From: Synergistota bacterium
GTDB taxonomy: Bacteria; Synergistota; GBS-1
Reading direction: 5' to 3'
Length of the DNA: 47,608 nucleotides
Assembly: GCA_021159885.1 (NCBI GenBank)
Contig: JAGHDO010000090.1
Location: 1-47,608, forward strand
The translations under genes and the position numbers were made by a program. Below are positions 399 to 8,223 of the stretch, in pieces (within the stretch, counting starts at the first letter, position 1; each line of letters opens with the position of its first letter). The notes under the pieces were generated by a model. It saw nothing but the letters and a program-made list of their open reading frames with translations, did no database searches and was not told the DNA's origin.

Positions 399-428
399 AG
401 TATATCACATCGAGTAAGGGAGTATCAA
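399..428 (-). promoter_or_regulatory. Putative sigma-70-type promoter of the chemotaxis receptor
   Basis: On the minus strand there is a TTGATA -35 (428-423), an 18-bp spacer and a TATACT -10 (404-399) preceded by TGA, so it also reads as an extended -10. Transcription would start near 392, about 38 nt before the receptor ATG. The element overlaps the end of dctM, so the receptor could be expressed separately from the transporter operon. An imperfect inverted repeat (CGATGT at 381-386, ACATCG at 407-412) spans the start region. Confidence 0.45.
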
Positions 429-1703
429 AGCTATCCGAGGGAAAAGGATTAGGAGAAAGACGGCTAAAATAAGTGAAACGAAGAAAGGGGTGATACCCTT
501 AAAAATTCTTTCTATGGGAATTTCCGGGAAGATTCCCTTTATGACGTATGCATTTATTCCCACCGGTGGCGTTATAACACCTATCTGGGTTAAAAGCACG
601 ATTAAAACGCCGAACCATATGGGATCGTATCCCAAGCTTAAAATAACAGGATAGAATATTGGTACGGTTAGAAGTATCAGCGCCAGAGCGTCCACAAAGC
701 ATCCTCCTACAACATATATGGCTACTATGAGCATCATCGCCAGCATGGGGTGGTTTTCGAGACTCATAAGCCAGCTCTGAAGGCTTTGAGGAATTTTGGT
801 TATAGCCAAAAAATGCCCGAAGACCGATGCTCCAGCAACCACGAATATTATCATGCATGATATACGCACGCTTTCAGAAAGCGCACGCTTTATTCCTTCC
901 CATGAAATCGTTCCTCTTAAAAGAGAAGTTATGGTTATGAGACCCGTTCCTACTGCGCCCGCTTCAACTGGAGTGAAAATTCCGCCGAGAAGCCCTCCCA
1001 CTACAGATATAAATATCAGGAGAACCTCTGATATGCTGAGCAGGGCTTTTAACCTTTCTTTCCATGCTTTTTTGGGATTTCGTGGTGCTATTCTGGGTTC
1101 TATTTTCATCCAAATGTAGATAGCTATTGAGAACAACGATGTTAATATCAAGCCTGGAATTATTCCAGCGATAAAAAGCTTTCCTATAGATTGCTGTGTC
1201 AGTATTCCGTAGATAACGAAGATCACGCTGGGAGGAATCATAATTCCGAGGCTTCCTCCAGCTGCCACGCTTCCTGCTGCTAAGGATTCATCGTATCCGT
1301 ATCTTTTCATTTCTGGCAAAGCTACCATAGCCATGGTGGCGGTTGAGGCATTTGTGGAGCCGCATATAGCGGCGAATCCGGCACTTGCCCATATTGTCGC
1401 TATTGCCAGTCCTCCGGGGAGGTGTCCCAGTAATGCGTTGGAGGTGTCATACAGCCTTTTGCTCATGCCTGAGCTGTAAGCTATTTGTCCCATGAGGACA
1501 AATAGCGGGATCACTGCCAGAGTATAGGAGTTAAAGGCAGATGCGAAATCTACTACGAGGAGTTTCATAGCGGCGTGAAGGGAAACGAAAGCGCTAAAGC
1601 CGATAAAACCTACGAGTGCCATCGCTACTGCTACTGGAACCTTTAGAAAAAAGAGCAGAAGGAGGAAGATAACCGCGATTGTTCCTGATGATATCGGACT
1701 CAA
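405..1703 (-). CDS. dctM: TRAP transporter large permease, DctM family
   Basis: The product (432 aa) is the large membrane subunit of a tripartite ATP-independent periplasmic transporter. It carries out sodium- or proton-coupled solute import with the DctQ and DctP partners. It is hydrophobic throughout, with about 12 membrane helices. It carries family segments such as 'AGFAAICGSTNASTATMA' and 'GSLGIMIPPSVIFVIYG' in the first half and 'GVITPPVGINAYVIKG' near the C-terminus. Length is normal for the family (about 425-440 aa). The start is TTG at 1703; it overlaps the dctQ stop in a TTGA overlap, which implies translational coupling. No substrate can be assigned from the permease. Confidence 0.93.
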   Translation of the reverse strand: MSPISSGTIAVIFLLLLFFLKVPVAVAMALVGFIGFSAFVSLHAAMKLLVVDFASAFNSYTLAVIPLFVLMGQIAYSSGMSKRLYDTSNALLGHLPGGLAIATIWASAGFAAICGSTNASTATMAMVALPEMKRYGYDESLAAGSVAAGGSLGIMIPPSVIFVIYGILTQQSIGKLFIAGIIPGLILTSLFSIAIYIWMKIEPRIAPRNPKKAWKERLKALLSISEVLLIFISVVGGLLGGIFTPVEAGAVGTGLITITSLLRGTISWEGIKRALSESVRISCMIIFVVAGASVFGHFLAITKIPQSLQSWLMSLENHPMLAMMLIVAIYVVGGCFVDALALILLTVPIFYPVILSLGYDPIWFGVLIVLLTQIGVITPPVGINAYVIKGIFPEIPIERIFKGITPFFVSLILAVFLLILFPRIALILPYSM

Positions 1704-2203
1704 GCCTTCTCCCTCCCAAGCTTAACCTCAGAAGGCTTCATTAGCTTAGTTGGTTTTATCACCATTCTCAGGGTTTTCAGGCTTTCGCTCAGAAAAGCAA
1801 GCCCCGCGATTAAGCCGATGGTTAAGTAAACGGGATACAGAGGTATACCGAGGGTCATCGAGGTTTCTCCAGAGATGTACGAGCTCGCTCCGGAGGAGAG
1901 CATACCCACGCTGAGTATAAAGAGGAAAGCCAAGGTTATAATGCGCGAGACGGCGTTGACGAAAGGTATAAAGTGCTTTGGAAAAATCCTATCTGCTATA
2001 TCCACGCTTATTTGCTCGCCGTTCTGGAAGCTCTTTAATACGGCGAGCGAAATCATTATCGAGGTCAAAAATTCCACTATGTCATAGCTTCCTGGAACCG
2101 GTGATCTAAATATTCTCAAGATCACATCAACGCATATCAGCGTGGTGGTAAATCCGAGCAGAGCACCCGAGGCAAGATTTAGGACTTCACCAAGTACTTT
2201 CAT
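1700..2203 (-). CDS. dctQ: TRAP transporter small permease, DctQ family
   Basis: The product (167 aa) has four predicted membrane helices, the usual size and topology for the small TRAP permease. This subunit docks with DctM and is needed for transport. The segment 'DVILRIFRSPVPGSYDIVEFL' region near residues 25-45 resembles the DctQ motif in which a conserved R/F-rich loop precedes TM2. The ATG start at 2203 overlaps the dctP stop as ATGA, and its own stop overlaps dctM, so dctP-dctQ-dctM is one coupled operon read leftwards. I am confident of the family but not of the substrate. Confidence 0.9.
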   Translation of the reverse strand: MKVLGEVLNLASGALLGFTTTLICVDVILRIFRSPVPGSYDIVEFLTSIMISLAVLKSFQNGEQISVDIADRIFPKHFIPFVNAVSRIITLAFLFILSVGMLSSGASSYISGETSMTLGIPLYPVYLTIGLIAGLAFLSESLKTLRMVIKPTKLMKPSEVKLGREKA

Positions 2204-3228
2204 TTTTCAGAACTCCCTTCCATTATAAGCTTTTTGAGGGCTTTTACGCATTTTCTCCCAGGAAATCCCTTTTTCTCCAGCTCTTTTGCATATTCTTCTA
2301 TGACTGGTCTTACTCTCTTAACCCATCTTGCGCTTTCCTCTTTTGAGAGATATATAAACTTGTTTCCTAAGCTCTCAGCGTAAGCCTTCCCTTCCCTGTC
2401 GCTTTCGTCCCAAGCTTCGCCATGTTTCTTTATCCATTTTTGGCTTACTGTCTCAAATATCTTCTTTATATCTGCGGGGAGCATTTCCCATTTTTTCAGG
2501 TTCATTATCACGTACATTCCGGTTGTGTATCCAATGTTGGTGCACATGATCGTGTATTTAACCACTTCAGCTTGTCTCCATCCCTTTAACACTTCCATAG
2601 GGGCAAAAGTTGCTTCTACCACGCCTCTCTGAAGAGCTTCGTATGCCATTCCTTGGCTCATGGCTATAGGAGTGGCCCCCAAGGCTTTTGCTACCTTCGC
2701 GCTGAATCCCGTTGTTCTTATCTTGACCCCTTTAAGATCCTCAAGCTTGGTTATCCTAACCTTGGAGTGAAGTAGACCCGGTCCATGGGCATGAAGATAA
2801 AGGACCTTTACCTGCGAAAGCTCCTTGGGTTTGAACATTTGATAGTATTTGTTTATGACTTTGGTTGCGGTTATCGCGTTAGGATACCCCATTGGCAGGT
2901 CAACTGCGCCCATTATGGGAAATCTTCCGCTTGTGTAAGCAAAACAGGACATTCCTATATCCGCTACGCCGTTTAAAACTCCATCGAATATATTGGGTCC
3001 TTTAAGCAATGATCCTCCGGGATAGTAGGTTATTTTCACGCTTTCCTTGCTTTGGATTTCTATTTCTCTGATCCAGTCTTCCGCGAGCTTGGATTGCACA
3101 TGTGATGGAGGGAAGAAGTTAGCATATGTAAGCTTTATAATGGTTTTCCCGCTTGCGATGCCGATTCCCGCATTTCCCCAGATTAAAGCCATTATCGCGA
3201 TAAGAACCGCTCTCTTAAGCTTTTTCAT
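2200..3228 (-). CDS. dctP: TRAP transporter solute-binding receptor, DctP family
   Basis: The product (342 aa) is the periplasmic receptor that captures the solute and delivers it to DctQM. The chosen start is ATG 3228, with SD AAAGGAGG (about 3238-3245) and a classic signal peptide (MKKLKRAVLIAIMALIWG, then a small-residue cleavage region near residue 22). The frame stays open upstream to 3519, but that extension would run through an intrinsic terminator and a leader-peptide region, so I reject it. Family features include 'LTYANFFPPSHVQSKLAEDW' near the mature N-terminus. Further on, 'KVRITKLEDLKGVKIRTTG' contains the conserved LKGxKIRT element whose arginine binds substrate carboxylates. 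Expression appears to be controlled by the upstream attenuator. Confidence 0.93.
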   Translation of the reverse strand: MKKLKRAVLIAIMALIWGNAGIGIASGKTIIKLTYANFFPPSHVQSKLAEDWIREIEIQSKESVKITYYPGGSLLKGPNIFDGVLNGVADIGMSCFAYTSGRFPIMGAVDLPMGYPNAITATKVINKYYQMFKPKELSQVKVLYLHAHGPGLLHSKVRITKLEDLKGVKIRTTGFSAKVAKALGATPIAMSQGMAYEALQRGVVEATFAPMEVLKGWRQAEVVKYTIMCTNIGYTTGMYVIMNLKKWEMLPADIKKIFETVSQKWIKKHGEAWDESDREGKAYAESLGNKFIYLSKEESARWVKRVRPVIEEYAKELEKKGFPGRKCVKALKKLIMEGSSEK

Positions 3229-3267: not shown

Positions 3268-3301
3268 AAAAAAAGCCGCCACCGGGAAAGGTGGCGGCTT
3301 T
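3268..3301 (-). terminator. Intrinsic terminator upstream of dctP (attenuator)
   Basis: On the minus strand a perfect 9-bp GC stem (GCCGCCACC at 3298-3290 with GGTGGCGGC at 3283-3275) closes a 6-nt loop. AAA/TTT flanks extend it to 12 bp, and a 7-nt U tract follows (3274-3268). It lies between the leader peptide and dctP, about 40 nt before the dctP start. It can therefore end transcription before the transporter genes are reached. Part of its 5' arm can pair with an upstream segment instead; see the attenuator entry. Confidence 0.9.
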
Positions 3302-3397
3302 AATTGCCCTTTGCTCGGAGGGGCTTTACCCCATCGTGAGCACAGCCAGCCTTTCCCGCATCCTGGCGGGCTTAAGGTAGTAATAATAATAGCGATA
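3268..3397 (-). promoter_or_regulatory. Ribosome-mediated attenuator with alternative RNA helices
   Basis: Three mutually exclusive helices are visible on the minus strand. The pause hairpin CCCGC (3370-3366) pairs with GCGGG (3359-3355), immediately after the tyrosine codons. Region 2, CGGGAAAGG-C-TGGC (3358-3345), is complementary to GCCACCTTTCCCG (3295-3283) over 13 bp with one bulged C, forming an antiterminator. That partner segment is the 5' arm and loop of the terminator. A ribosome stalled on the Tyr codons (3397-3377) would cover the first arm of the pause hairpin, free region 2 and allow antitermination. A ribosome that reaches the stop codon (3328-3326) would let the terminator form. 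The helices are seen directly; the mechanism is inferred by analogy with trp, phe and his leaders. Confidence 0.75.
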
Positions 3398-3439
3398 ACC
3401 GAAACTATGGAGTTTACTGGCTGCGCTCTGTGAAAGCAA
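3326..3439 (-). CDS. Tyrosine-rich leader peptide of the dctPQM operon
   Basis: This is a 37-codon ORF, too short for ordinary gene calling. It starts at TTG 3439, seven bases after a strong SD (AAAAGGGGGG), and ends at TAA 3326. Codons 15-21 read Tyr-Arg-Tyr-Tyr-Tyr-Tyr-Tyr, mixing TAT and TAC. Because the run is a near-perfect triplet repeat, the other frames read Ile/Thr or Leu. The Leu frame has a TAG two codons upstream and no start. The Ile frame has no ATG, GTG or TTG start after the promoter and no stop before dctP. Only the Tyr frame has an SD, a start and a nearby stop. The peptide itself probably has no function apart from placing the ribosome. Confidence 0.72.
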   Translation of the reverse strand: MLSQSAASKLHSFGYRYYYYYLKPARMRERLAVLTMG

Positions 3440-3463
3440 TTGATTTCCCCCCTTTTAGGAGAA

Positions 3464-3492
3464 TTTATAACACATAGTTGGTGGGATGTCAA
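3464..3492 (-). promoter_or_regulatory. Sigma-70-type promoter of the dctPQM operon
   Basis: On the minus strand there is a consensus TTGACA -35 (3492-3487), a 17-bp spacer and a TATAAA -10 (3469-3464). Transcription would start near A3456, 17 nt before the leader-peptide TTG and about 228 nt before dctP. It is back-to-back with the promoter of the TAXI receptor gene; the two -35 boxes are 20 bp apart. Confidence 0.85.
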
Positions 3493-3512: not shown

Positions 3513-3541
3513 TTGACATTTAGAAGTTCTGCTTTTATCAT
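3513..3541 (+). promoter_or_regulatory. Sigma-70-type promoter of the TAXI-TRAP operon
   Basis: There is a consensus TTGACA -35 (3513-3518), a 17-bp spacer and a TATCAT -10 (3536-3541). Transcription would start near 3548, leaving a short leader of about 43 nt before the receptor ATG at 3591. The region shared with the divergent dctP promoter is small enough for one regulator to affect both, but I see no clear operator besides the symmetry of the two -35 boxes. Confidence 0.75.
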
Positions 3542-3590
3542 CTTATCTTAGACGAATATCGCATATCTCGGGTGGGAGGTGAAAGCGCGC

Positions 3591-4574
3591 ATGAGGGTGA
3601 AAAGACTTGTGGTAATGGGAGTTTTGATCGGTGTGCTTGCCATTACCCTCGTGGCTTCTCCGGCTCTATCTGCTAAGAAGTTTATAACTATAGCTTCTGG
3701 TCCCGTTGGCGGTGAATGGTACATATTAGGAGGTATTCTTGGAGAGATAGTTAAAGAGATTGCGCCGGGAAGCAAGGTTATGGTTAGAACGGGGGGATCT
3801 TTATCTAACCTATCTACCGTTAATATGGGAAAAGCCGATATAGGGATAACCCAGGATCGTCTGTTTTATGAGGCACGTAATGGAATGGGAGCTTTTAAGG
3901 GAAGAGAACCCTTTAAGAATGTTGAGGGGCTTTGCTATCTTGCTGATATATACATGGGTGTCTTCTTAGTCAGGGCTGATTTTCCAATTAATTCCATTGA
4001 CGAGATAAAGGAAAAGAAAATAGCTATAAGACTTGTGACTGCTCCGAAAGCCTCCTCTCCTTCTAAGGCTACCGAGAGGGTTCTTGAGGCTTATGGCATA
4101 AAACCAGAGGATCTCAAAGCGTGGGGTGGAAGCATTAGCTATGTTTCATATTCAGAAGCAAGTTCGCTTATAAAGGATGGACATGCTGATGCATATTGTG
4201 GTCCTATTCTTCCTGCCATAGTTGAGCTTTCTACCGTCCGTAAGCTTAAGCTCCTTCCGCTGAAGAAATCCGTTATAGATTATCTGGTAAAGAAATATAA
4301 GTATGGAAGGGCAGTTATTCCGAAAGGGGCATACTATTTCGTTAAGCAGGATACGGAGACCATAACCGAGTCACCCATTATCATCGTTAATAAGAAGTTG
4401 AGTGAGGATTTCGTGTATGAGCTTACCAAGGCTATCTGTGCACAACCTGATAGAATACGTCAATCAGGGAAAACCTATAGAAACTTTGATCCTGAGAAAG
4501 CTCCGAATATACATGGTGGGCCCATTCATCCTGGAGCTCTCAGATACTATAAGGAGTGTGGTTGGATCAAATGA
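3591..4574 (+). CDS. TAXI-family TRAP transporter solute receptor
   Basis: The product (327 aa) is a periplasmic receptor of the TAXI (TRAP-associated extracytoplasmic immunogenic) family. A signal peptide (MRVKRLVVMGVLIGVLAITL, with cleavage near ALSA) precedes 'ITIASGPVGGEWYILGGIL', which contains the family's GxxGGxxY-type signature. This is followed by 'GGSLSNLSTVNMGKADIGIT'. An upstream in-frame GTG at 3579 is possible, but SD GGGAGGTG lies nine bases before ATG 3591, which favours the later start. It is transcribed from its own promoter and followed by a hairpin, then by the fused permease that receives its cargo. TAXI receptors are known for glutamate, 2-oxoglutarate and similar acids; the substrate here is unknown. 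Confidence 0.92.
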   Translation: MRVKRLVVMGVLIGVLAITLVASPALSAKKFITIASGPVGGEWYILGGILGEIVKEIAPGSKVMVRTGGSLSNLSTVNMGKADIGITQDRLFYEARNGMGAFKGREPFKNVEGLCYLADIYMGVFLVRADFPINSIDEIKEKKIAIRLVTAPKASSPSKATERVLEAYGIKPEDLKAWGGSISYVSYSEASSLIKDGHADAYCGPILPAIVELSTVRKLKLLPLKKSVIDYLVKKYKYGRAVIPKGAYYFVKQDTETITESPIIIVNKKLSEDFVYELTKAICAQPDRIRQSGKTYRNFDPEKAPNIHGGPIHPGALRYYKECGWIK

Positions 4575-4593
4575 GATGCAATCTGTAGCGCTC

Positions 4594-4632
4594 AAGGGGA
4601 GTTAGGGAGGTACCCCTGGCTCCCCTTTTTCT
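4594..4632 (+). terminator. Intercistronic hairpin with T tract after the TAXI receptor gene
   Basis: An 8-bp stem (AAGGGGAG at 4594-4601 with CTCCCCTT at 4620-4627) is followed by a T-rich tail (TTTTTCTTT). It lies between the receptor gene and the permease gene of the same transporter. It probably acts as a partial terminator or an mRNA 3'-end stabiliser, so that more receptor than permease is made. This arrangement is common for binding-protein transporters. Confidence 0.65.
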
Positions 4633-4648
4633 TTAAGGGGGTGTTAAC

Positions 4649-6502
4649 TTGCGCTGGGTTATTTATGTAACCTCGGTGCTTCTTATTTCGTTTCACATAT
4701 ATACCGCCGCGTTTGGTTCGTTTATAGCTCAGCTTCAAAGAAGCTTTCACCTGACGTTAGCGGGAATATTGGGGTTCTTGTTTTATCCTGCCCTTAGAGG
4801 GAAAAAGATTGGAAAGCTTGATCTTATTCTATCTGCTCTCTCCGGAGTAGCTTTTGGTTATATTGCGCTAAACTGTAATAGAATAGCGGAAAGGGAATCT
4901 CTGGTTAGCTACCTCTCACCGCTTGATCTTTTAATAGGTGCGCTCGTGATAATTCTCGTTATAGAGCTCGCGAGAAGAACTGTTGGATGGGTTCTGAGCT
5001 TTGTAGCAGCATTATCACTGGCTTATGCTTATTTTGGTCCGCATCTTCCGGACATCATAGCACATCCCGGAATTTCCTTAAGGGATATCATTGACTATCA
5101 GGTATATGGTTTAGATGGTATCTACTCTATCCCTCTTGGTGTTTCCTCAACTTATATAGTTTTATTTATAATCTGGGGAACCGTCATGGAATATTCTAAG
5201 ACCGGGGATCTAATAATGGATCTCGGAAAGCTATTCGCGGGTAAGTTTCGCGGAGGTCCAGCTAAGGTTGCTTGTATAACTTCTGCTCTTTTTGGATCCC
5301 TTTCAGGGAGCGCCGCTGCAAACGTTTATGCTACGGGCACCTTTACTATACCTATGATGGTGAAGATCGGATATAAGCCTGCTACTGCAGGAGCAGTTGA
5401 AGCAGTTGCATCAACAGGAGGACAGATAATGCCTCCCGTTATGGGAGCGGCAGCCTTTCTCATGGCGGAGTGGCTTGGGGTTCCATATATAACGATATGT
5501 AAAGCTGCGCTTTTACCTGCCATTTTTTACTACATAGCTTTAATCTTTATTCTCGATTTTGAAGCGGCAAAGCTCGGAATAAGAGGTATGAGTAGTGAGG
5601 AAATACCCTACTGGAGAGATGTCCTTAAGAGAATTTATCTTTTAGTTCCCTTGGTCTTTTTCATTATAGTTTTGATTAAAGGGTATACCCCTTTTAGAGC
5701 GGCTTTTTTCGCGATCCTTATGAGCTTTGCCTTAAGCTTCCTGAGGAAAGATACCATGCTTACTTCCCGCAAGCTTCTTGATGTAGCTGTGGTTTCCGCG
5801 AAGAGAACGGTTATGATAGCTTCCGCCTGTGCAGCGGCGGGCATAGTTATAGGAATAATAACTCTTACTGGTATAGGGTTGTCTCTCTCAAGTATAATTC
5901 TTCTTCTATCGGGCGGAAAGCTCTTTTTAAGTCTCCTGCTTATAATGATTTGTTGCATAATAATGGGTATGGGAACTCCTACAACGGTCGCTTACGTTAT
6001 AGTAGCCACCCTTGCGGTTCCTACCATGGGGAAGCTTGGCTTTTCTTCTATTCCAGCTCACTTATTTGTCTTTTACTTCGCGGTTATCTCCATGATAACG
6101 CCGCCGGTGGCTATAGCGGCTTATGCAGCCGGCGAGATAGCCAAAGAGGATCCCATGAGGATTGGCTTTACCGCCATGAAAATAGCCCTTCCGGTCTACA
6201 TTATTCCTTATGTTTTTCTGTTTGATAGGAGCTTGTTGCTTGAGGGATCCCTTACCGGAATAGCTTTCAGAGCTTGCGCCACGTTTCTGAGCGTTTTGGT
6301 CTTTGCCGGAGGAGTTGCTGGTTGGTTTTTCGGTAATATAGGATGGGTATGGAGAAGCTTGCTTTTAATGACGTTTCTTCTCATAAATATTCCCTTGGGG
6401 AGGATAACCGTGCTTGGCCTCGCGCTGGGGCTCATTTTAACTGCTTTTCTTTTCCTCAAATCAAGGAGAGGGAAAGCGATAACAATGGGTAAAGGAGGGT
6501 GA
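4649..6502 (+). CDS. TRAP transporter fused permease (DctQ-DctM, 4TM/12TM type)
   Basis: The product (617 aa) is almost entirely membrane helices. Roughly residues 1-140 form a DctQ-like four-helix unit and residues 140-617 a DctM-like unit. Family landmarks include 'GSLSGSAAANVYATGTFTIP', 'STGGQIMPPVMGAAAFLMAE' and 'PTTVAYVIVATLAVP'. Such fusions are the usual partners of TAXI receptors, matching the gene just upstream. The start is TTG 4649, seven bases after AAGGGGGTG; no better ATG aligns with the first helix. The stop overlaps the SD region of the following aldolase gene, so transport and metabolism of the substrate are probably co-expressed. Confidence 0.93.
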   Translation: MRWVIYVTSVLLISFHIYTAAFGSFIAQLQRSFHLTLAGILGFLFYPALRGKKIGKLDLILSALSGVAFGYIALNCNRIAERESLVSYLSPLDLLIGALVIILVIELARRTVGWVLSFVAALSLAYAYFGPHLPDIIAHPGISLRDIIDYQVYGLDGIYSIPLGVSSTYIVLFIIWGTVMEYSKTGDLIMDLGKLFAGKFRGGPAKVACITSALFGSLSGSAAANVYATGTFTIPMMVKIGYKPATAGAVEAVASTGGQIMPPVMGAAAFLMAEWLGVPYITICKAALLPAIFYYIALIFILDFEAAKLGIRGMSSEEIPYWRDVLKRIYLLVPLVFFIIVLIKGYTPFRAAFFAILMSFALSFLRKDTMLTSRKLLDVAVVSAKRTVMIASACAAAGIVIGIITLTGIGLSLSSIILLLSGGKLFLSLLLIMICCIIMGMGTPTTVAYVIVATLAVPTMGKLGFSSIPAHLFVFYFAVISMITPPVAIAAYAAGEIAKEDPMRIGFTAMKIALPVYIIPYVFLFDRSLLLEGSLTGIAFRACATFLSVLVFAGGVAGWFFGNIGWVWRSLLLMTFLLINIPLGRITVLGLALGLILTAFLFLKSRRGKAITMGKGG

Positions 6503-6508
6503 TGGTTA

Positions 6509-7432
6509 ATGAGTGTGGGAAAGACGCTTAATCCCACGGGATCCTGGGTTGCAGTTATTACTCCATTTACGCCAGATGATAAGGTAGATATAAAAGGGTT
6601 TGAAAAGCTCGTTGATTTCCATGTTGCTAATGGTACAGATGGGCTAATATTTATGGGATCTACGGGAGAATCTACCTCTCTCTCAATGGAGGAAAAGAAG
6701 GAGATAATCTCAGCTATGGTGGATTATTGTAAGGGGAAGATCCCTGCCATATTTGGCGTTACGTGTTCTACCACAAGGGATACTATAAAGCTTGCTGAAT
6801 TTGCGGAGGCTCAGGGAGCGGATGGCATAATGTTGACCGTTCCATCCTATCTTATTCCTCCACAGGATGCTCTCTATGAATATTTTTCTGAAGTTGCAAG
6901 ATCTGTTTCCATCTCCGTGACCCTTTATAACAATCCTGGCAGAGTCGTTGCGAATATTCAGCCCGATACCATAGCTCGTCTTGCCGAGATTCCCAATATA
7001 GTTGCTGATAAGGAGGCGGTTCCGAGTGTAAGTCATATTACCGATGTTTTACGCAAGGTGAACGGTAGGATAAATGTTTTGTGCTGTGATTCCCCAAAGT
7101 TCGATCTTATAATGCCGCTTCTCGCTATGGGAGGACATGGGACAGCTAATGTTGCGGGGAATATAATACCCCGCGAAATGGCTGAGCTTTCAAGGCCGTG
7201 GAAGGGATGGGACGATGTCGTTAAGGCGAGAGAGCTCTTCTTTGAGTACAAGCGAGTGATGGAAGTTCTCTACTCAGTTATAAACCCCGTTCCGGTTAAG
7301 GCAGCAGTCGGTCTTTTGGGTCTTCCTGCTGGTAATCCAAGACCTCCTCTGCAACCTATGAAGGGAGAAAAGCTTGAGATTCTCAAAAAGCTTTTAGAGG
7401 ATCTTAAGCTTAGGGAGAAGTATGGCTTATAA
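6509..7432 (+). CDS. DapA/NanA-family aldolase (dihydrodipicolinate synthase-like)
   Basis: The product (307 aa) is a class I aldolase of the DHDPS/N-acetylneuraminate lyase family, which forms a Schiff base with pyruvate or another 2-oxo acid. Visible catalytic landmarks are 'GSTGES' (pyruvate carboxylate binding), Tyr140 in 'LYNNPGR' and the Schiff-base lysine Lys168 in 'ADKEAV'. Length is slightly above DHDPS proper (about 292 aa). It sits six bases after the fused TRAP permease, with SD AAAGGAGGG. That context favours a catabolic aldolase or dehydratase acting on the imported acid over lysine biosynthesis, although no substrate-specific residue proves it. Other lysine genes are absent nearby. 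Confidence 0.85.
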   Translation: MSVGKTLNPTGSWVAVITPFTPDDKVDIKGFEKLVDFHVANGTDGLIFMGSTGESTSLSMEEKKEIISAMVDYCKGKIPAIFGVTCSTTRDTIKLAEFAEAQGADGIMLTVPSYLIPPQDALYEYFSEVARSVSISVTLYNNPGRVVANIQPDTIARLAEIPNIVADKEAVPSVSHITDVLRKVNGRINVLCCDSPKFDLIMPLLAMGGHGTANVAGNIIPREMAELSRPWKGWDDVVKARELFFEYKRVMEVLYSVINPVPVKAAVGLLGLPAGNPRPPLQPMKGEKLEILKKLLEDLKLREKYGL

Positions 7433-7455
7433 GGGAAATGAGGAGTGCTTATAAT

Positions 7456-8223
7456 ATGGAGATCTTGAGGGAAGTTAAGCCCCCTATTGGTTTCCTAACC
7501 CTAAATAGACCGGAATCCTTGAATACCTTTAACGTTCCTTTAGCAAAAGGGCTTAATCGGACACTTGCTGAGTTCGATGAGCATCCCGATGTAAGGGTTG
7601 TGGTCATAAGGGCGGAAGGGAGAAATTTTTCAGCGGGTATAGATCTTAATGAGTTTTTTGACAAAGATGTGAGGTCTCTGCGCGAATTTATTAGGCTAAT
7701 GGATATGCATAATCATACTATAGTTAACATGAAAAAGCCGGTAATTGCTTCTGTTAGGGGATATGTGCTTGCTAATGGTGCGGGATTGACCTTGGCAAGC
7801 GACTTTGCTATAGCCTCTGAAAACGCTAAGATAGGAACTACGGCTATAAAAGTTGGTCTTGCCTGTCTTGGTCCCGGCGTTGTACTCGCAAGGTGCGTTG
7901 GACGTAAGAAAGCGCTTGAGATGGTGCTTCTGGGAGACTGGATAGATGCTCAAGAGGCTCTTCGCTTAGGAATCGTTAACAGAGTTGTTCCAGATGACAA
8001 GCTGGAGGAAGAGACAGAGAGATTTGCTCTGGAGCTTGCGGAGAAAAATCCGCTTGCTTTGGAGCTCGCTAAGAGATGTATTTATGCTTCTGAAGATCTT
8101 CCCTATAGGCGAGCTTTAGACTACGCGAGTGAACTTTTTGCCTTTTTGGCGGAAACCGATGATGCCAGGGAAGGCATTAGAGCTTTTCTCGAAAAAAGAA
8201 AACCGATCTGGAGAGGAAAGTAA
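7456..8223 (+). CDS. Crotonase-superfamily protein lacking the usual catalytic glutamates
   Basis: The product (255 aa) is of the enoyl-CoA hydratase/isomerase fold. The oxyanion-hole region 'NFSAGIDLNEF' and the second hole segment 'GYVLANGAGLTLASDFA' are present. At the positions equivalent to the hydratase glutamates Glu144 and Glu164 it has Gly110 and Ala130. Ordinary enoyl-CoA hydration is therefore unlikely. Crotonase relatives also do decarboxylation, isomerisation and C-C bond cleavage. ATG 7438 is possible, but AGGAG at 7441 supports ATG 7456. It is grouped with the aldolase and the TAXI-TRAP transporter, suggesting a small catabolic operon for an organic acid. Confidence 0.82.
   Translation: MEILREVKPPIGFLTLNRPESLNTFNVPLAKGLNRTLAEFDEHPDVRVVVIRAEGRNFSAGIDLNEFFDKDVRSLREFIRLMDMHNHTIVNMKKPVIASVRGYVLANGAGLTLASDFAIASENAKIGTTAIKVGLACLGPGVVLARCVGRKKALEMVLLGDWIDAQEALRLGIVNRVVPDDKLEEETERFALELAEKNPLALELAKRCIYASEDLPYRRALDYASELFAFLAETDDAREGIRAFLEKRKPIWRGK

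Follow-up and report, generated by a model that had tools for sequence, protein, structure and literature searches.

A predicted tyrosine-codon leader peptide attenuator before a TRAP transporter operon in Synergistota, with sister leaders on aromatic biosynthesis genes

Introduction

Leader-peptide attenuators exist for Trp, Phe, His, Leu, Ile/Val and Thr; to our knowledge, control by tyrosine is known only via T-boxes and TyrR. In E. coli-type attenuators (trp, his, phe, leu and thr), the parts follow the order promoter, short open reading frame (ORF) with its control codons in a cluster, 1:2 stem, antiterminator, terminator and regulated genes, and translation of the E. coli trp leader ends at a stop codon situated between segments 1 and 2. 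Tyr T-boxes (Firmicutes) and TyrR (enterobacteria) sense tyrosine supply and control the synthesis and transport of aromatic amino acids, the former by binding uncharged tRNA directly and the latter as a protein. Published accounts describe attenuators for histidine, threonine and phenylalanine and T-boxes for tyrosine (PMC1262725), and leader peptide systems from Proteobacteria, Actinobacteria and, as that study's own finding, Firmicutes only (PMC2965389). The Corynebacterium glutamicum aroR leader (Phe-Tyr-Phe) before aroF responds, according to the account of Neshat et al. 2014 in PMC11802643, to Phe and not to Tyr. Full-text searches of a literature collection with few subscription papers returned no Tyr leader attenuator.

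Here we describe a leader on the minus strand of a 47,608-nt contig (the window) from a member of the Synergistota. Its parts are ordered as in E. coli-type attenuators, but the control residue is tyrosine, the regulated genes encode a TRAP transporter and the host belongs to another bacterial group. Like Tyr T-boxes and TyrR it would sense tyrosine supply, although through a leader peptide. The aroR leader, an aromatic-codon leader on DAHP synthase, resembles the YYYFFF sister leaders reported below; it differs in having one Tyr codon only, in preceding a biosynthetic gene and not a transporter, and in coming from another phylum. From comparison of related sequences, we consider it very probable that the leader is a ribosome-mediated transcription attenuator that senses Tyr-tRNA and drives the import of a Tyr-yielding aromatic carboxylate.

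Results

The leader before dctPQM carries the parts of an attenuator

The regulated operon encodes DctP, DctQ and DctM in overlapping genes, that is, a TRAP transporter with all three proteins assigned by Pfam (Table 1). Divergent from it, on the plus strand at 3579-8223 of the window, lies an operon for a TAXI-type TRAP binding protein, a fused TRAP permease, a DapA-family aldolase and an enoyl-CoA hydratase-like protein. The leader itself contains a predicted ORF with control codons, a 1:2 stem, mutually exclusive antiterminator and terminator structures, and a pause-type hairpin. The promoter, the TTG ORF with its Shine–Dalgarno (SD) sequence, Tyr-Arg-Tyr5, the pause hairpin, the antiterminator and the terminator all lie where an earlier note on this DNA had placed them. 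From the terminator U7 to the dctP ATG at 3228 there are 40 nt. The leader RNA has a fold energy z of -5.2 relative to shuffled sequences (0/200 shuffles as low), and among 60,000 simulated regions of similar composition no short ORF carrying Tyr5 appeared. In the window's genome (TAY)5 occurs at the leader site and nowhere else, whereas (TAY)4 has nine matches, of which only the two at the leader overlap.

Table 1. Features of the dctPQM locus (window coordinates) and of the sister leaders in related genomes
Feature	Position	Strand	Remarks
dctP, TRAP substrate-binding protein	2200..3228	-	Pfam PF03480; fold near aromatic-acid-binding TRAP proteins
dctQ, TRAP small permease subunit	1700..2203	-	PF04290; 4-nt overlap with dctP
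dctM, TRAP large permease subunit	405..1703	-	PF06808, TIGR00786; overlaps dctQ
Promoter TTGACA-17-TATAAA	3464..3492	-	TTGACA 3492-3487, TATAAA 3469-3464, 17-nt spacer; from sequence
Shine–Dalgarno AGGGGGG of leader ORF	~3447..3453	-	SD-like sequence equally spaced in relatives
Predicted leader ORF, 37 codons, MLSQSAASKLHSFGYRYYYYYLKPARMRERLAVLTMG	3326..3439	-	TTG 3439-3437, TAA 3328-3326
Control codons Tyr-Arg-Tyr-Tyr-Tyr-Tyr-Tyr	3377..3397	-	6-9 Tyr codons per dctP leader, n=4
Segment 1, 5' arm of 1:2 stem, GAGCGCAGCCAG	3417..3428	-	Six pairs with two-sided changes
Segment 2, 3' arm of 1:2 stem, CTGGCTGTGCTC	3338..3349	-	Covariation with segment 1
Pause-type hairpin CCCGC-CAGGAT-GCGGG	3355..3370	-	5 pairs in 7/7 leaders, one compensatory (G-C to A-U)
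Antiterminator 5' arm, CGGGAAAGGCTGGC	3345..3358	-	12 pairs intact in 7/7 leaders
Antiterminator 3' arm (segment 3), GCCACCTTTCCCG	3283..3295	-	Overlaps terminator 5' arm and loop
Intrinsic terminator AAAGCCGCCACC/GGTGGCGGCTTT with U7	3268..3301	-	Stem 3301-3290 with 3283-3272; U7 3274-3268
Phe/Tyr/Trp leader before aroE-aroD	L072:1460-1700 (+); L071, L070 (-)		Three relatives
YYYFFFE leader of aroF-aroA-aroC-aroKB operon	L104, L103 (-), ~1320-1470 of reverse strand; L114

No Rfam family matched the leader: the Phe_leader (RF01859) and Thr_leader (RF00506) models reached 19-21 bits against a gathering score of 55. The T-box model (RF00230) gave no match at the dctP leader and found T-boxes elsewhere in these genomes; two in the family (L143, L146) stand before genes for carbamoyl-phosphate synthase and argininosuccinate synthase, which shows that the family has both T-boxes and leader peptides.

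The Tyr run is kept in orthologous dctP leaders

We compared the window's genome with three relatives from its family, G001 (GBS-1), G002 and G003 (42_11). All three have a dctP orthologue (67-69% identity), and all three carry, 5' of the leader, a TTGACA motif about 17 nt upstream of a -10 element (TATAAA or TATAAG). The SD, start, Tyr run, stop, 1:2 stem, GGGAAAGG/CCTTTCCC antiterminator and GC terminator precede dctP in each of the four genomes examined. Homologous leaders lacking in-frame Tyr codons had been named in advance as evidence against the attenuator reading; the Tyr run is present in all four orthologous leaders, as five to seven consecutive codons or two runs of three. The predicted peptides in the relatives are MLISVTSRRNVSYYAYYYYYYLYPARLRERLVALPLR (G001), MIINAVSLKDKSYCVYYYYYYYLKPAKLRERLAALLLR (G002) and MLMVTSAASEKVYYYAYYYFYYYSPPEGGKGWLRKG (G003). 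The leader was not found before more distant dctP homologues (57-63% identity, in Deltaproteobacteria-type MAGs).

Such a leader could in principle be mimicked by an upstream transcript's ordinary terminator combined with a fortuitous Tyr-rich ORF, since TAT/TAC repeats do occur elsewhere (about nine (TAY)4 per genome). This explanation is refuted by the comparison, and we regard its probability as negligible: the arrangement is kept in four genomes, recurs in two to three copies within a genome and shows covariation (see below), and the uniqueness of (TAY)5 in the window's genome and the simulations also count against chance.

In G003, an indel shifts the frame 3' of the Tyr run, yet the Tyr run and the position of the stop are retained, which indicates that the codons are conserved and not the C-terminal peptide. 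This bears on a mechanism of the TnaC type, in which the nascent peptide together with free tyrosine would arrest the ribosome and turn the operon on when tyrosine is in excess. The E. coli tnaCAB operon includes a permease, and the present leader peptide is likewise rich in one aromatic residue and precedes a transporter. Translation of TnaC is arrested by free Trp (PMC8429421). One other leader in the phylum also precedes a tryptophanase/tyrosine phenol-lyase-like gene. However, the peptide shows no conservation beyond the Tyr run, the whole C-terminal part in G003 being read in another frame; the number (6-9) and spacing of the Tyr codons vary, as codon counting predicts; and the sister leaders described below stand before biosynthetic genes, aroF and aroE, that would be expected to be induced by scarcity. 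We therefore consider arrest by free tyrosine very improbable here, and favour ribosome stalling at Tyr codons.

Sister leaders precede aroE-aroD and DAHP synthase

A covariance model built from the four dctP leaders was run against 188 genomes of the phylum, disregarding matches below 30 bits that had no leader ORF. In three of the four family genomes (G001, G002 and G003), a homologous leader lies directly before aroE-aroD (E 1e-21 to 1e-23). In all three of these, Phe, Tyr and Trp codons replace the Tyr run in the same frame, as in the peptide MRKGTASLNVWFSFNYYYFYFTWPAKLRERLAVLSLR, and an ORF of 36-38 codons occupies the same place in 4/4 dctP and 3/3 aroE leaders. The mixture suits a pathway step shared by the synthesis of the three aromatic amino acids. 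In the window's genome, the only aroE is a diverged one with no leader.

The aroE leaders fix the Tyr frame independently, and they bear on the possibility that the TAT/TAC repeat is read in another frame, so that leucine or isoleucine/threonine would be the control amino acid. The Ile frame (VIAIIITTL) and the Leu frame (LSLLLLLP, then a stop) do resemble ilv/thr and leu leaders, and TAT/TAC changes are synonymous in the Leu frame too (TTA/CTA). However, neither frame is opened by an SD and start in any of the four genomes (0/4), and neither has a consistent stop, whereas the Tyr frame has an SD, an ATG, TTG or GTG start and a common stop region in 7/7 leaders and reads Phe, Tyr and Trp before aroE. 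The earlier note had itself raised this caveat and discounted it, and its grounds hold in the window: the Ile frame is open from an ATG at 3519, 5' of the promoter, through dctP with no stop before that gene, and the Leu frame is a nine-codon stretch with no start. Control by leucine, isoleucine or threonine is thus highly improbable, and we read the control codons as tyrosine.

A third leader stands before the DAHP synthase operon in G001 and G002, with the peptide MNIVVSKVGACWYYYFFFE or MNIWADRIRDFGYYYFFFE (...WYYYFFFE* and ...GYYYFFFE*), a 19-bp terminator and a mutually exclusive alternative hairpin; in G001, aroA, aroC and a fused aroK-aroB follow in this operon. In the window's genome, the DAHP synthase contig (C83) starts within the 3' half of the same 19-bp terminator, so the leader is missing there because the assembly is cut inside it. 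Judged from these sequences, the dctP leader appears to be one member of an aromatic regulon and not an isolated oddity. Orthologous leaders that keep all the parts, and the aroE and DAHP synthase sister leaders that fix the frame and the physiological meaning, support the proposal of a Tyr attenuator first made from the window alone.

Covariation supports the alternative structures

In an alignment of seven leaders (four dctP and three aroE), the 1:2 stem, the pause hairpin and the terminator have 97% of their cells paired, and pairing falls to 35-48% when the partners are slid by one to three columns. Two-sided changes affect eight pairs, six of them in the 1:2 stem, a total that 0/500 shuffles reach. 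The terminator, a 12-bp stem with a U-run, is 100% paired in 7/7 leaders. The antiterminator is also 100% paired in 7/7; because it is nearly invariant, its support is co-conservation and not covariation. When the RNA ahead of a ribosome at mid-run was folded as far as segment 3, the antiterminator formed in five of the seven leaders and was not the minimum-energy fold in the other two, and ahead of a ribosome at the stop the terminator formed in all seven.

The loop of the 1:2 stem holds the control codons and that of the 2:3 stem the stop codon, an arrangement shared by all leaders (7/7). The leader had been likened to the trp, his, phe and leu attenuators. The order of parts agrees with theirs, but the geometry departs from that of E. 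coli trp: here the stop codon comes after segment 2, between segments 2 and 3, in 7/7 leaders. The edge of a ribosome halted in the Tyr5 run of the window would fall a few nucleotides 3' of segment 1 and not on it, so 1:2 pairing would have to be blocked by occupancy of the loop or by a queued ribosome.

From these parts, their conservation and their covariation, we infer the stalling and the direction of the response as follows. RNA polymerase would start at the 3492-3464 promoter and a ribosome would translate the 37-codon leader. With plentiful Tyr-tRNA, the ribosome would reach the stop between segments 2 and 3 and block 2:3 pairing; the 3:4 terminator would then form and transcription would end before dctP. 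With scarce charged Tyr-tRNA, the ribosome would halt in the Tyr run, inside the 1:2 loop, and block 1:2 pairing, so that GGGAAAGG(C)UGGC could pair with GCCACCUUUCCC, no terminator would form and dctPQM would be transcribed. The TRAP system would then import an aromatic carboxylate that yields tyrosine. In this scheme, dctPQM would be grouped, in this bacterial family, with aroF-aroA-aroC-aroKB (Tyr/Phe leaders) and aroE-aroD (Phe/Tyr/Trp leaders).

The substrate is probably a tyrosine precursor or tyrosine

The nearest PDB folds to the AlphaFold2 model of DctP (pLDDT 91) are 4n6d, 4nap (Dde_0634), the TarP-type proteins 7nqg/7nsw/7nr2 and the marine TRAP proteins 5i5p/5iga, described as aromatic-acid-specific; Dde_0634, the TarP-type proteins and 5i5p/5iga have TM-scores of 0.82-0.86 and 24-31% identity, and sialic acid and lactate binders rank below the aromatic-acid TRAP proteins. 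The ligands of TarP are coumarate, ferulate, caffeate, cinnamate and 4-hydroxyphenylacetate; those of 4nap/4pgn we take to be D-tryptophan and indole pyruvate/indole acetate. The literature examined describes no attenuator for the TarP-type, Dde_0634 or 5i5p/5iga proteins. The fold comparison and the pure Tyr codons together suggest that the DctP substrate is likely to be a tyrosine precursor or tyrosine itself, and the leading candidates would be tyrosine, 4-hydroxyphenylpyruvate and 4-hydroxyphenylacetate.

The leader could also be a genuine, Tyr-responsive attenuator for a transported compound that is no source of tyrosine, for example an unrelated aromatic acid or a metabolite whose uptake tracks amino acid starvation. 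What a TRAP system transports is not easily predicted, binders of coumarate, caffeate and ferulate belong to the aromatic-acid clade, and DAHP synthase and TyrA are both present in the window's genome, which may therefore be independent of imported tyrosine; there, import would save synthesis. The pure Tyr codons, set against the mixed Phe/Tyr/Trp codons of the aroE leaders, argue for a tyrosine-specific purpose, the nearest folds include a 4-hydroxyphenylacetate complex, and 4-hydroxyphenylpyruvate has been found bound to CouP, an ABC-type aromatic-acid binding protein (PMC3610893). On balance, a substrate unconnected with tyrosine supply seems to us unlikely, although it is the most serious of the alternatives, and a tyrosine-yielding substrate is preferred. 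In G001, no prephenate dehydrogenase (TyrA, PF02153) was found, and a phenylacetate-CoA ligase-like gene (L006:3284-4600 (-)) is divergent from the dctP leader; together these would allow a hypothetical route from an aryl acid to tyrosine.

Tyr-rich leaders occur in other families of the phylum

A phylum-wide pattern search gave 19 forward matches, against six with a reversed control pattern. Tyr/Phe-rich leaders with an SD and a terminator precede DAHP synthase in two other families, with tyrA just downstream in one genome (G129). In two other families, Tyr-rich leaders with terminators precede sodium/solute symporters (L054, L063, L066, L067, L090, L091 and L092), and predict uptake of aromatic amino acids or related compounds by those symporters. 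The leader MLKSFVAGFVYAYYYYYESGPVRMPGL, with a terminator, precedes the tryptophanase/tyrosine phenol-lyase-like gene mentioned above (L084 (-), ~1517-1700). A gene that may be catabolic is an unexpected target for a Tyr attenuator; by analogy with TnaC and tryptophan, this leader might sense free tyrosine.

Forward matches within ordinary coding regions (L080-L083, L093 and L095-L097) were discarded. The other (TAY)4 matches in the four genomes fall within longer genes, are in a different frame or lack a terminator, and one of them, C2 of G002 with (TAT)6, is the start of a protein gene that reads in another frame as MKKILLLLLFIEV. The pattern also matched in 28/113 genomes from a class in another phylum, mostly at the start of one protein family (...VGIPRALLYYYYY...; L123-L142), and none of the matches examined by sequence was a leader. 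Given such mimicry by a protein family, the pattern proves nothing without a terminator and gene context.

Discussion

A leader with pure Tyr codons would extend the attenuator class to a new amino acid, a bacterial group beyond those usually represented and a TRAP transporter. The broadest reading is that Tyr leader attenuation serves tyrosine scavenging throughout the phylum, with the TRAP system importing 4-hydroxyphenylacetate or 4-hydroxyphenylpyruvate for conversion to tyrosine and, in G001, providing a main route to it; we put this forward tentatively, as possible but doubtful. The codon content of such a leader may serve as a natural substrate label for a transporter that is otherwise unassignable. 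Within one genome, sister leaders that differ in Phe/Tyr/Trp content would allow the choice of codons to be compared with the position of the regulated genes in the pathway.
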